Positions 35,297 to 38,993 of a DNA stretch of 61,003 bases are shown here, in pieces. The notes under the pieces are model-generated. The model worked only from the letters and a program-made list of their open reading frames with translations. It did no database searches and was not told the origin of the DNA. This DNA is from Candidatus Woesearchaeota archaeon. Its GTDB lineage: Archaea; Nanobdellota; Nanobdellia; Woesearchaeales; UBA10216. The stretch's first letter is position 1. Every line of letters starts with the position of its first letter. The stretch spans positions 1 through 61,003 of the forward strand of contig JACPBX010000031.1 of assembly GCA_016180085.1 (NCBI GenBank), written 5' to 3'. Made by a program: the position numbers and the translations under genes.

Positions 35297-36589
35297 ATGC
35301 TCGACATCAAATTCATCAAAGCCAATCCCGCAGTTGTGAGGAAGGACCTTGAGCGGAGGCAGGACAAGGAGAAGCTGCCATGGGTTGACGAGGTCGTTAA
35401 GAAGCACGATGAGTGGAAGAGGTTTAAGCTGGATGTTGACAAGCTCAGGCATGGCCGCAACCTCTTAACAGCAGAGATAAGCAAGCTTCACAAGCAGAAG
35501 AAGGACATCGCTGCGAAAATAAAGGAAGCCAGGGAGATGGCTGAAAAGGTAGAAGCTTCTGATGAGAAGCTGCGGCAGCTGCAGGAAAGGGTTGATTTTA
35601 TTCTACAGCGGCTGCCAAATATACTGCACGACTCGGTTCCGGCAGGCAAAGACGATACCGAAAACAAGGAAATAAGAAGATGGGGAACCCCGAAAAAGCC
35701 CTCATTTCCCCTTAAAAACCACGGCGAACTCCTCGAGCAGCTCGGCTTGGCTGATTTTGAGCGAGCCACAAAAATTTCAGGGGCAGGCTTTCATTTCCTG
35801 AAAGGCGATTTTGTAAAGCTGGAGCTTGCCCTGATTAACTTCGCGGCTGCAGCGATAGAGAAAAAGGGATTTACGCTGATTGAACCCCCTTTGATGATGC
35901 AGAGGAAGCCGTATGAAGGCGTTACCGACATTGCCGCTTTCGAGAATGTCATGTACAGGATTGACGAGGGCAGGAAGGATGAGGAGAGCAGCTACCTCAT
36001 CGCAACTTCGGAGCACCCCATAGCAGCGATGCTGATGAACGAAACCCTGGATGAAAAGGAGCTGCCGCTGAAGTTCTGTGGCATTAGCAACTGTTTCAGA
36101 AGGGAGATTGGCAGCCACGGCATTGACACTCGCGGCCTGTTCAGGGTCCATCAGTTCAATAAGGTGGAAATGTTTGTTTTCTGCAAGCCAGAGGATTCCT
36201 GGAAGCTGCACGAAGAGCTGCTGAAGAATGCCGAAGAGTTGCTGCAGCAGCTGAAAATCCCGTATAGAGTCGTAAGCGTTTGCACTGGCGACATCGGTTC
36301 GGTTGCCGCAAAGAAATACGACCTGGAAGCGTGGTTCCCAAGGCAAAATAATTTCCGCGAGGTAGTAAGCTGCAGCAACTGCACATCCTACCAGGCAGCA
36401 TCGCTGAATATAAGGTACCCCAACGGCAAAACAGGAGAGAAGGAATACGTCCACACATTAAACTCCACAGCAATCGCAACGGGAAGGACGATGGTCGCCA
36501 TCATTGAGAATTACCAGAACAAGGACGGCACAATAACCGTGCCTGACGTGCTTGTGCCTTACGTGGGCAAGAAAACTATTGGGAAGTAA
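35297..36589 (+). CDS. serS: Seryl-tRNA synthetase (common, non-methanogen type)
   Basis: A 430-residue class II synthetase. Residues 1-105 are the coiled-coil tRNA-binding arm (long Lys/Glu-rich helices). Motif 2 is FRREIGSHGIDTRGLFRVHQ (about 265), followed by FNKVEMFVF; motif 3 is NSTAIATGRTMVAIIEN (about 390). It is the common SerS, not the rare methanogen type. The TATA box CATTTATATTAG (about 35265) lies 25-30 bp before the ATG. The C-terminus VPYVGKKTIGK and its DNA are partly repeated 1182 bp downstream after an MNT/HEPN cassette, so this end may have been supplied by the inserted element. Confidence 0.93.
   Translation: MLDIKFIKANPAVVRKDLERRQDKEKLPWVDEVVKKHDEWKRFKLDVDKLRHGRNLLTAEISKLHKQKKDIAAKIKEAREMAEKVEASDEKLRQLQERVDFILQRLPNILHDSVPAGKDDTENKEIRRWGTPKKPSFPLKNHGELLEQLGLADFERATKISGAGFHFLKGDFVKLELALINFAAAAIEKKGFTLIEPPLMMQRKPYEGVTDIAAFENVMYRIDEGRKDEESSYLIATSEHPIAAMLMNETLDEKELPLKFCGISNCFRREIGSHGIDTRGLFRVHQFNKVEMFVFCKPEDSWKLHEELLKNAEELLQQLKIPYRVVSVCTGDIGSVAAKKYDLEAWFPRQNNFREVVSCSNCTSYQAASLNIRYPNGKTGEKEYVHTLNSTAIATGRTMVAIIENYQNKDGTITVPDVLVPYVGKKTIGK
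36552..36573 (+). repeat. Direct repeat, left copy: 3' end of serS
   Basis: These 22 nt encode VPYVGK near the serS C-terminus and are identical to 37734-37755. Similarity continues more weakly for another 10-13 nt on the right. The two copies bracket the second MNT/HEPN cassette; distance 1182 bp. Confidence 0.85.
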
Positions 36590-36610
36590 GCCAACAGTTG
36601 GCAGCGTAGT

Positions 36611-36691
36611 ATGTTACTCAGTTACATATTCTTTATATACTTGGTAACATATGTCATTAAGTACCATAAAATTTATATACTCAGTAACATA
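36611..36691 (+). promoter_or_regulatory. Duplicated promoter/operator of the second MNT/HEPN pair
   Basis: ATGTTAC at 36611-36617, GTAACAT at 36644-36650 and 36684-36690. The last two belong to a 20-bp direct repeat (36632-36651 and 36672-36691) that joins a TTTATATAC box to the heptamer, 40 bp apart. The same heptamer flanks the start of the first MNT/HEPN pair. Confidence 0.65.
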
Positions 36692-36701
36692 AACATTCTG
36701 C

Positions 36702-37115
36702 ATGAAGGAAGAGGAACATTTTAACGCGTATAGCGAGCACCGCTCTGTCATTGATTGGGCGATTGACAAAGGCGTTGAACAGTCACAAAGGACAATAGCC
36801 ATGCACGCCTCCAGAGGGGCTGTTGAGCTTTTGTCGTTTTATCTTCATAAAGCCAAGAAGATAGACCAAGGTTTTCAGGTTAACCACAGGTGGTTCAAGA
36901 GCCCGCAAGCAGGCAGGAAGCTTCCGGAGTTTGAGAAGAAGGAAGTAATCGTGCCTAAGCTGGTTGAGCTCGAAAACAACTGCGAGAACCTGACGTACGG
37001 CTCGCAAAAGCCGGCAAGCGAAATCAAGGAAGTTGTTGAGCTGTTTAACGAAGTGGAAAAGCTACTGAAGGAGTTGGCAGGGGATGAAAAGCATGAAAAG
37101 CGAGACCAGGAATAA
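36702..37115 (+). CDS. HEPN-like helical protein, toxin candidate
   Basis: A 137-residue, mostly helical protein. The N-terminal part SEHRSVIDWAIDKGVEQSQR, then TIAMHASRGAVELLSFYLHK looks like the first helices of archaeal HEPN proteins. The C-terminal half is a Glu/Lys-rich helix pair (EIKEVVELFNEVEKLLKELA). I do not see a clear RxxxxH motif; HASRGAVELLSFYLH contains Arg and His in a different spacing. It is paired with, and overlaps by 32 bp, a nucleotidyltransferase gene, which is the best evidence for the HEPN call. Gene order is the reverse of the first cassette. Confidence 0.6.
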   Translation: MKEEEHFNAYSEHRSVIDWAIDKGVEQSQRTIAMHASRGAVELLSFYLHKAKKIDQGFQVNHRWFKSPQAGRKLPEFEKKEVIVPKLVELENNCENLTYGSQKPASEIKEVVELFNEVEKLLKELAGDEKHEKRDQE

Positions 37116-37731
37116 GCTTGTTGCGTATGCGATGCACTTTGCATCCTTCCTTGTAGAGCGAGGGGTAAAGTCGAGAAAGATTGTGCTGTTTGGCTCTGTG
37201 GCGAGCGGAGAATTTGACAGGGAAAGCGATATAGACATTTTTGTCGATGCAGACAAAACCGAAGGAAAAGCAGTGCTTGGATTATTGAGCAGCTTTGAGA
37301 AAACGTTTGGCGAAAAGTGGAGGCTTAAAGGCATTGCAAATCAGTTATCAGTTACTGTAGGCGATTTAAATTCAAAGGAGTGGGAAGACGTCAGGAGAGC
37401 AATTCAAAGCTATGGTTTGACCCTTTACGGGCAGTATGAAGGGCTTCCCAAAGGCATTAGGCCCTTTGTGCTCTTCAGCCTTGACTTCAAGGGCATAAGC
37501 AGGCCCCGCAAGGTTGGGCTTTGGCGGAAGCTGTATGGCTATGCGCAGAAGGTAGGCAAAAAAAGCTACAAAACAGAGGGCCTGTTAGGGCGCCTTGGCG
37601 GCGCTAAGGTGGATAGGGGCGTTGTTCTCGTTCCGGCTGCAGGTGCTGCGGAACTCAAAGGCTTTTTGGGAAAGAATAAGATAAGCTTCAGGCTGGTTGA
37701 GTTTTGGAGCGACCAGCTCTCTTCCAAGTAA
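37084..37731 (+). CDS. Nucleotidyltransferase (MNT) protein, antitoxin candidate
   Basis: A 215-residue protein. The motif KIVLFGSVASGEFDRESDID (about 32-51), then IFVD, is a complete MNT signature: GS, the Asp pair and following strand. The C-terminal 90 residues (RPFVLFSLDFKGISRPRKVG ... RLGGAKVDRGVVLVP) form an additional basic domain of unknown type. ATG 37084 lies within the HEPN gene; a second ATG two codons on is also possible. Its stop codon is 2 nt before the repeated serS 3' end, so the gene sits flush with the right border of the cassette. Confidence 0.75.
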   Translation: MKSMKSETRNKLVAYAMHFASFLVERGVKSRKIVLFGSVASGEFDRESDIDIFVDADKTEGKAVLGLLSSFEKTFGEKWRLKGIANQLSVTVGDLNSKEWEDVRRAIQSYGLTLYGQYEGLPKGIRPFVLFSLDFKGISRPRKVGLWRKLYGYAQKVGKKSYKTEGLLGRLGGAKVDRGVVLVPAAGAAELKGFLGKNKISFRLVEFWSDQLSSK

Positions 37732-37733
37732 AG

Positions 37734-37755
37734 TTGTGCCTTACGTGGGCAAGAA
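37734..37755 (+). repeat. Direct repeat, right copy: serS 3'-end remnant
   Basis: Identical over 22 nt to 36552-36573. In frame it reads VVPYVGKNTI and then departs from serS. It is probably what is left of the original serS 3' end after the cassette inserted. Confidence 0.8.
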
Positions 37756-37873
37756 CACAATTCGGCACAAGTCGGCAGTATAGCCGACTGTGCAATCCTA
37801 CCGAAGCAGGATTTGCAGCAGCCGAATGTGCCCAGTCGCAGCAGCGACTTGGGGATTATTGGGAAATAATTCC
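37756..37873. other. Highly structured segment before cdc6: candidate ncRNA or replication-origin element
   Basis: An outer stem 37756-37766 / 37821-37830 (CACAATTCGGC with GCCGAATGTG, one bulge) encloses two hairpins. Hairpin 1: AGTCGGC 37770-37776 with GCCGACT 37783-37789, extended by GCAC/GTGC. Hairpin 2: AATCCT 37794-37799 with AGGATT 37808-37813. Two more follow: CCCAGTCGC 37831-37839 with GCGACTTGGG 37844-37853, and a GGGA-loop hairpin at 37853-37873. The stems account for nearly every base. It lies between the serS remnant and the TATA box of cdc6. It could be a structured RNA, a repeat-derived element or an origin; sequence alone does not decide. Confidence 0.55.
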
Positions 37874-37890
37874 GGCTTTCTCACAACAAA

Positions 37891-37900
37891 CTATATAAAC
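37891..37900 (+). promoter_or_regulatory. TATA box of cdc6
   Basis: CTATATAAAC lies about 27 bp (centre to start) before ATG 37923, which predicts a leaderless mRNA and fixes that start over the TTG at 37914. Confidence 0.6.
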
Positions 37901-37922
37901 ATTCCAGCCATCTTTGCCGAGT

Positions 37923-38993
37923 ATGACTTTTTTCGGCAGCACAGGCAGCAGCGGCGAGTCCCTGTTTAGAAACCCGATTGGGCTTGACTACGACTACCAG
38001 CCAAAGGTCGTCAAGTACAGGGAAGCCGAGATGAAGCAGGTAGCCGCTGCAGTCAGGCCCCTGTTTCAGAAAAGGAGCGGCCGCAATGTCTTTGTTTACG
38101 GCCCTTCCGGTGTTGGAAAAACAGTAGCCGTGAGGAACCTGTTGCAGGAGCTTGAGCAGGAAACCGATGAGATTGTGCCTTTCTACATCAACTGCTGGAA
38201 AAACGACACCACGTTCAAGATGCTTCTTGAGATGTGCAGTGCCATCAGTTACAGGTTCACCCAGAACAAGAGGACAGAGGAGCTTTTTGAGGTTGTCAAA
38301 AAAGAAGTCAACAAAAAAGCAGCTGTTTTTGTCCTTGACGAGGTTGACAAGATAGATGACATAGACTTCCTCTACAACATGATTGAAGAGGTGTTCAACA
38401 AGTCAATAATCCTCATAACCAACAGGAAGGACTGGCTTGCCGAGCTGGACAGCAGGATAAAATCCCGCTTGACAGCAGAGATTCTGGAATTCAGGCCTTA
38501 CAACCTGACAGAGACAAGGGGCGTCTTGCAGCAGCGCATGGAGTTTGTGTTCTCACCCGGAGTCTGGGACGACGCTGCTTTTGAGGCTGTTGTCCAGAAA
38601 GCGCTCGGCATGCAGGACATCCGCTCTGGGCTTTACCTCATGAAAGAGGCAGCCAACGTTGCTGAGGAGCGGAATTCCGGAAAAATAGCCGCAACTGATG
38701 TTGCTGCAGCCACAAAAAAGCTTGAGGAGTTCAGCATAAAAAAGACAGAGGAACTGGAAGACGAAACCCGCTTCATACTGAACATCGTAAAGAAGAACTC
38801 CGGCCTGAAGATTGGCGAAGTCTACAGCGCCTATAAGGAAGCCGGGGGCGAGATGGTCTACAAGACGTTCCAGAGGAGGATCGCGAAGCTTGAGGATGAC
38901 AGGTTCATTGCAACTGAAAAAGTCACTGGCGGCAGCGAGGGCAGCACCACCATAATCAAGTTTGGCCAGGAAAAGAAGCTGACGGAGTTCTGA
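37923..38993 (+). CDS. cdc6: Orc1/Cdc6-type replication initiator
   Basis: A 356-residue AAA+ ATPase of the archaeal origin-binding family. Walker A is YGPSGVGKT (about residue 60), Walker B is FVLDEVDKIDD (about 138) and sensor 1 is LITNRKDW (about 163). IKSRLTAEILEF and the RSGLYLMKEAANVAEE lid helix follow. Residues about 270-350 form the C-terminal winged helix that contacts origin DNA (GLKIGEVYSAYKEAGGEMVY). It is shorter than many Cdc6 (about 400). Origins commonly lie just upstream of cdc6 in archaea, which gives weight to the structured segment there. Confidence 0.9.
   Translation: MTFFGSTGSSGESLFRNPIGLDYDYQPKVVKYREAEMKQVAAAVRPLFQKRSGRNVFVYGPSGVGKTVAVRNLLQELEQETDEIVPFYINCWKNDTTFKMLLEMCSAISYRFTQNKRTEELFEVVKKEVNKKAAVFVLDEVDKIDDIDFLYNMIEEVFNKSIILITNRKDWLAELDSRIKSRLTAEILEFRPYNLTETRGVLQQRMEFVFSPGVWDDAAFEAVVQKALGMQDIRSGLYLMKEAANVAEERNSGKIAATDVAAATKKLEEFSIKKTEELEDETRFILNIVKKNSGLKIGEVYSAYKEAGGEMVYKTFQRRIAKLEDDRFIATEKVTGGSEGSTTIIKFGQEKKLTEF

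Follow-up and report, generated by a model that had tools for sequence, protein, structure and literature searches.

Double-hairpin elements have been described from mitochondrial DNA (PMC5910586, PMC2800124), among them those of the fungus Allomyces (Paquin et al., 2000, cited in PMC5910586). In Rickettsia, palindromic elements (RPE) are found in frame within protein genes (Ogata et al., 2000, 2002, cited in PMC6649704 and PMC10969869), and bacterial REP dimers carry GTAG or CGTC tags, the CGTC families being devoid of a dedicated transposase (PMC3733652). As for archaea, the MITEs of Sulfolobus and Halobacterium are short, non-autonomous, palindromic and dispersed (reviewed in PMC10969869), and counts of short palindromes exist for some archaea (PMC12306157). 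Our search of the open-licence literature, which cannot prove absence, yielded no account of such elements from DPANN archaea, be they double-hairpin elements or mobile palindromes inserted in frame.

The locus reported here lies upstream of orc1/cdc6 in a Candidatus Woesearchaeota archaeon, within a window of 61,003 nucleotides (the whole stretch of DNA that was analysed). We consider it highly probable (about 90%) that its paired segment is a nested pair of miniature mobile double-hairpin elements, which act as DNA.

The paired segment upstream of cdc6

The features of the locus, in order along the window, are the following.

36702..37115, + strand: orphan ORF of the cassette, possible HEPN-type partner without family match; its homologue in L095 is 73% identical
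37084..37731, + strand: MNT-type nucleotidyltransferase of the cassette (PF01909, E 5.5e-9; a weak MntA match is below cut-off)
37734..37755, + strand: left flank of the insertion and cassette border, a 22-bp exact copy of the serS 3' end (TTGTGCCTTACGTGGGCAAGAA), direct repeat of 36552-36573, with homologous tail copies in L095
37756..37766, no strand: first part of element B, whose total length is 48 bp; it forms the 5' arm of hairpin 1 (CACA-ATTCGGC, with one unpaired A), pairs with 37821-37830 and matches the family architecture
37767..37816, no strand: element A (50 bp), inside the hairpin-1 loop of B, ACAAGTCGGCagtataGCCGACTGT followed by GCAATCCTaccgaagcAGGATTTGC, with an end ambiguity of one base
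37817..37853, no strand: second part of element B, with loop AGCA, 3' arm GCCGAATGTG (37821-37830) and hairpin 2, CCCAGTCGC-agca-GCGACT(t)GGG (37831-37853)
37854..37873, + strand: flank to the right of the insertion, where the serS-tail copy ends (GATTATTGGGAAATAA, stop at 37867-37869) and TTCC follows; these bases form a small hairpin of their own, lie outside the element and recur in L097, where the element is lacking
37891..37899, + strand: TATA-like box (CTATATAAA) in the promoter of cdc6, conserved also in relatives that lack the element
37923..38993, + strand: orc1/cdc6 gene (TIGR02928 at cut-off), with orthologues in the genus

The initial annotation had described this region as almost fully base-paired, with a closing stem around two hairpins and two more hairpins downstream, and both the extent and the layout of the pairing are borne out at 37756-37873 (118 bp), where pairing far exceeds chance expectation. 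The folding energy of the 118-mer is -50.0 kcal/mol; 1493 random 118-mers taken from the window average -28.0, and a single one of them is as low. The longer region, 37756-37922, folds at -56.3 kcal/mol on the + strand (z -4.4) and at -63.2 on the - strand (z -4.3), with none of 200 shuffles being as good in either case. The closing stem, CACA(a)TTCGGC/GCCGAATGTG, encloses two hairpins and is followed by CCCAGTCGCagcaGCGACTtGGG and GATTATTgggaAATAATTCC, and the single bulged base noticed in each stem is confirmed as a trait common to a whole element family. The four hairpins are nevertheless not one unit: their pairing is real, but the fourth one, GATTATTgggaAATAATTCC, is the end of the serS-tail copy and is present in a relative that is devoid of the element (L097). 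Positions 37874-37922, which are the cdc6 promoter and leader and are conserved in relatives, lie outside the paired structure. Neither the segment nor the window has any Rfam match, and ARAGORN finds nothing in the window.

Positions 37756-37853 (98 bp) consist of one double-hairpin element nested in another, both being copies of a dispersed element of 45-52 bp. Element A (ACAAGTCGGCAGTATAGCCGACTGT followed by GCAATCCTACCGAAGCAGGATTTGC, 37767-37816) is matched by the covariance model of the family, R1, at 37766-37817 on the - strand (E 5.1e-6), and element B (CACAATTCGGC at 37756-37766, continued by AGCAGCCGAATGTG and then CCCAGTCGCAGCAGCGACTTGGG at 37817-37853) at 37807-37853 on the + strand (E 1.4e-6), both with filters off. 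Each of them folds alone into the family shape. Element A is also recovered by an independent structural descriptor and has a similar copy at C14:62454 of the window genome, and hairpin 2 of element B has copies at several places in that genome. Nesting of A in the loop of the first hairpin of B is the simplest reading of the two matches, and it accounts for the closing stem with its two enclosed hairpins.

An empty site is found in L097 (JACPIH010000023.1), whose Cdc6 is 87% identical. There, serS directly joins cdc6 without the 98 bp (TACATGGGCAAAAA followed directly by GGTTATTGGGCAATAATTCCAGCTTTCTCACAACAAACTATTTAAAC), and the bases matching the right flank are GGTTATTGGGCAATAATTCC; the junction in the window reads TACGTGGGCAAGAA, the 98 bp and then GATTATTGGGAAATAATTCCGGCTTTCTCACAACAAACTATATAAAC. 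The insertion lies inside a codon of the serS-tail copy and the target is not duplicated. None of the other relatives examined has the element in front of cdc6 either. On this reading, element B was inserted into the duplicated serS 3' end, between the AA and the G of a codon, and element A later entered the loop of element B. At this site, the element probably has no host function.

A dispersed family and its insertion sites

The family was found by searching the window genome (998,598 bp, 45 contigs) with the segment, which yielded several partial copies, and R1 was built from 14 copies. Its members are composed of two adjacent hairpins of about 23-26 nt each, the second one being inverted relative to the first, as in CCCAAATCGTGCAATGCACGATTGGG followed by CCCAGTCGGCTGACGCCGACTTGGG. 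A hairpin consists of a foot of 3 bp, a single unpaired A (or a T on the other arm), a stem of 5-9 bp and a loop mostly of 3-6 nt, and the whole element measures 45-54 bp (nearly all copies 45-52). The feet are conserved, as CCCAA...TGGG followed by CCCA...TTGGG and variants of this arrangement, in which CCC, CAC, CGC, GCA, TGC and others occur.

The window genome contains 26 R1 places at E < 0.02, and the nearest species, G004, about 50 matches in 950 kb; copy numbers are lower bounds, several genomes having been read in part. Every one of the eight genomes of the genus has R1 matches, as do three further genera of the family. Phylum-wide, 7 of 279 genomes have matches, one of them (G302) from another family of the class, and none of 15 viral contigs with the 16-mer core has an R1 match. 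The structural descriptor, which does not depend on the model, recovers 86 sites in the searched DNA and none in 489 kb of shuffled sequence.

Besides the window locus, four clean presence/absence pairs distinguish the window genome from G004, two in each direction. The 51-bp elements at C29:42604 and C22:138144 of the window genome have empty sites in G004. Conversely, the sites of two G004 elements, at L174:1409 (51 bp, GGTTTTGCCTCT^TTTTCCGTG) and L169:17714 (48 bp, TTTTGCGAAA^AGCGGTCAA), are empty in the window genome. Neither a target-site duplication nor a loss of target bases is seen at the four clean sites or at the window site. Whether gain or loss took place is inferred at these pairs, as most sites lack outgroup polarisation. 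At C41:1473, the window genome carries a second element within one that is present in G004, which is an independent case of nesting. The C37:8784 element is identical in the two species, indicating that some copies are long-lived.

A general preference for hairpin targets was considered and rejected, as six or more junction-crossing pairs are no commoner in the joined flanks than at random sites (66% vs 64%), although the folding energies of the joined flanks are on average lower (-14.4 vs -11.0). Several copies do lie inside TTGACC...GGTCA hairpins, for which we claim no general rule. These hairpins, TTGACC(C)TTTTT..AAAAA(G)GGTCA, are a second dispersed repeat, often located beside or inside tRNA genes and often split by double-hairpin elements (L003 600-690, L005 1490-1570, L022 1450-1660, L018 1560-1640).

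Some copies lie within genes. The C22:138144 insert adds 17 in-frame codons to a glycosyltransferase-like protein (KYSLQ[NPNRAKARLGPVAKGDLG]NYVLLVYGRPG vs KYSLQQNYVLLVYGRPG), and the C29:42604 insert adds 17 residues in frame to an intein-like ORF whose orthologue is empty; the two lie at 1500-1551 of L033 and of L034, and both names are given from reading the sequence rather than from a family search. Further copies are found within long ORFs, several of which, though not all, are likely real genes, and two copies lie within tRNA introns of about 96-110 nt (L010 1442-1623, L021 1399-1566). In a separate case (L043 1460-1620, G000:C30:2071), an element splits a T-arm-like tRNA sequence, CCGGGTTCAAG^TCCCGG, in which ARAGORN calls no tRNA even with the element removed; the sequence may belong to a tRNA that is split, contains an intron or is dead.

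The commonest lengths are 48 and 51, and 36 of the 52 main-type elements have a length of 3n, where independent pairing of hairpin lengths predicts 21, an excess that may come partly from shared ancestry. The elements contain 50 stop codons, compared to 156 in plain shuffles. This depletion was rejected as a separate trait and is attributed to the feet: when feet and pairing are kept, shuffles contain 61 stop codons, and 42 of 500 are as low as the elements. A stop-poor body, often of 3n length, would make insertion into genes tolerable.

Mechanism and competing explanations

Movement through a hairpin-DNA mechanism has, in our view, about an even chance of being correct. The element would move as an extruded or single-stranded hairpin, handled either by an enzyme acting in trans or by replication and repair enzymes, and would be joined to its target without staggered cuts.

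The leading alternative, which we regard as improbable, is a REP/BIME-type element whose movement depends on a REP-associated tyrosine (Y1) transposase, like that of the bacterial GTAG REPs. An inverted hairpin dimer with a bulged base, a high copy number and clean insertion without target duplication all speak for it, as does the likewise observed insertion of bacterial REP dimers into palindromes and genes (PMC3733652). However, PF01797 (Y1) is present in G002 and G004 and absent from seven other element-bearing genomes (G000, G001, G003, G005, G006, G007 and G010, all element-bearing genomes being drafts of 67-97% completeness), including the element-rich G000, G001, G005, G007 and G010. 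Furthermore, a GTAG/CTAC tag lies within 14 nt of the end in none of 80 elements, and CGTC/GACG near the end in only 8. None of the families tested is a candidate mobiliser: Y1, serine recombinase and reverse transcriptase (RVT_1) were each rejected, as none correlates with element copy number.

It is also quite doubtful that the hairpins are not mobile at all, but are formed and altered where they stand when replication switches template (quasipalindrome copying). This idea draws its strength from the tips. At two sites, C29:613/L110:17284 and C3:6079/L127:3285, an element occupies the same base in the two species but has wholly different, yet complementary, tips, and one-sided changes are very few. 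Shared feet and architecture at unrelated sites, together with clean presence/absence of 48-51 bp, nevertheless need copying from site to site. Simple insertion, for its part, does not explain the same-base sites without a hot spot: they may reflect either an exchange of tips in place or repeated insertion at a hot spot, and an in-place correction may act on the tips after insertion of the mobile elements.

The tips are highly variable, with 88 distinct ones among the 104 main-type hairpins. Of the pair cells in 98 aligned matches, 97.3% hold standard pairs; 288 are changed on both sides and about four on one side only. The alignment was fitted to the model, and it includes most palindromes on both strands, so that counts are roughly doubled; what matters is the ratio. 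For shuffles, the corresponding values reach 78% paired and 78 cells changed on both sides. G-U intermediates are almost absent. As changes are nearly all two-sided and such intermediates hardly occur, complementarity is argued to be made at the DNA level, by copying, insertion or exchange of a whole palindrome, and not by slow compensatory change of an RNA. A more specific and rather unlikely possibility is that transposition or a fold-back copying step gives the tips a new, self-complementary sequence each time. Feet and shape alone would then define the element, and either host replication proteins or an archaeal enzyme not yet described would move it in the form of a DNA hairpin.

The same pattern bears on the earlier proposal of a structured RNA, which would be a small RNA or an mRNA 3' element of the MNT/cdc6 region whose fold is under selection. 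The fold is very stable and the strong covariation that had been put forward as its hallmark is indeed seen, but it is almost wholly of the two-sided Watson-Crick kind, with few G-U intermediates, unlike the stepwise evolution of an RNA. Dozens of copies in unrelated contexts, empty orthologous sites, cdc6 loci devoid of the segment in relatives and the lack of any Rfam match make this proposal very improbable.

The hairpins had also been suggested to be the recombination end of the MNT cassette, which they abut. They would then be comparable to an integron attC site, which their imperfect palindrome with an extrahelical base recalls. The kind of DNA was right, i.e. mobile, and the flanks do resemble a cassette end, 37734-37755 being an exact 22-bp repeat of the serS 3' end and 37854-37869 continuing the same tail. 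The hairpins themselves, however, occur at dozens of places without MNT genes, unrelated to cassettes. Moreover, in L095 (JAHFTU010000035.1), a second serS tail comes after the same orphan and MNT pair (70% DNA identity) and has no hairpin element. This largely refutes an att role unless this copy has lost its element. We thus give the suggestion very little credence.

What looks like an attachment site for toxin-antitoxin-like cassettes, arranged as a tandem array, is rather the serS 3' end, since serS-tail copies delimit the cassettes and a 36-mer of this tail has a single hit, in a serS gene, in the 1.44 Mb searched. The order is serS, orphan and MNT genes and serS-tail copy in the window (36552-37755). 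In L095 (953-2980), serS, orphan and MNT genes and tail are followed by AbrB-like and PIN-like ORFs (labels given from reading the ORFs), a third serS tail, another ORF and cdc6. No integrase was identified for this array, and no relative of the MNT protein was found in viral contigs. Between serS and the orphan ORF, the window also contains 40-bp direct repeats at 36610-36691 (TATGTTACTCAGTTACATA.. and ACTCAGTAACATA), similar to repeats in the L095 cassette and possibly a cassette operator.

Finally, a replication origin with paired Orc1/Cdc6 sites, suggested by the position directly upstream of cdc6, is hardly credible, as GC skew stays positive across 37.8 kb without any switch, the element is missing before cdc6 in the other relatives examined and the same element occurs genome-wide.

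The nested mobile elements matter in several respects. By inserting into protein genes and tRNA introns of small genomes, such elements alter proteins and gene models, and they can wrongly be taken for regulatory RNAs or origins. Clean insertion, the lack of a mobiliser among the families tested and tips that are variable yet complementary raise the question of what moves and rewrites them, for which two species, that of the window and G004, supply before/after pairs.

Comparison with known palindromic elements

The elements have in common with archaeal MITEs that they are short, non-autonomous, palindromic and dispersed. Classical MITEs, however, have terminal repeats in common with an IS, and target duplications usually accompany them, as expected of movement by a DDE transposase, whereas no duplication and no parent IS were found here. 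With GTAG and CGTC REP dimers, they share an organisation as inverted hairpin dimers, intragenic copies and insertion inside other palindromes. They differ from these dimers by being archaeal, by two hairpins that abut without any spacer and by the tags, since they have neither the GTAG tag and same-genome Y1 (IS200/IS605-like) transposase of RAYT systems nor, in most copies, the CGTC at the palindrome end of CGTC REPs (RPE-4/6, dRS3 type).

Like RPE, they are mobile palindromes found in frame in protein genes, as seen for the glycosyltransferase-like and intein-like inserts when compared to empty orthologues. RPE, as presented in the articles citing them, are about 150 bp long with a conserved encoded peptide, unlike the shorter double hairpins with variable tips described here. 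The mitochondrial double-hairpin elements are matched by two adjacent hairpins, dispersed copies and mobility seen as presence/absence. In particular, the Allomyces elements, as far as the citing article describes them, likewise have two adjacent short hairpins, are dispersed and inferred to be mobile, and encode no protein. They are organellar and, as far as known, unrelated in sequence, while the present ones lie on an archaeal chromosome, with conserved feet, variable tips and insertions in frame and in tRNA introns; the likeness is one of description, and no common descent is claimed. All in all, the elements at this locus belong to a new archaeal variant that resembles both the bacterial REP/RPE repeats and the mitochondrial double-hairpin elements.
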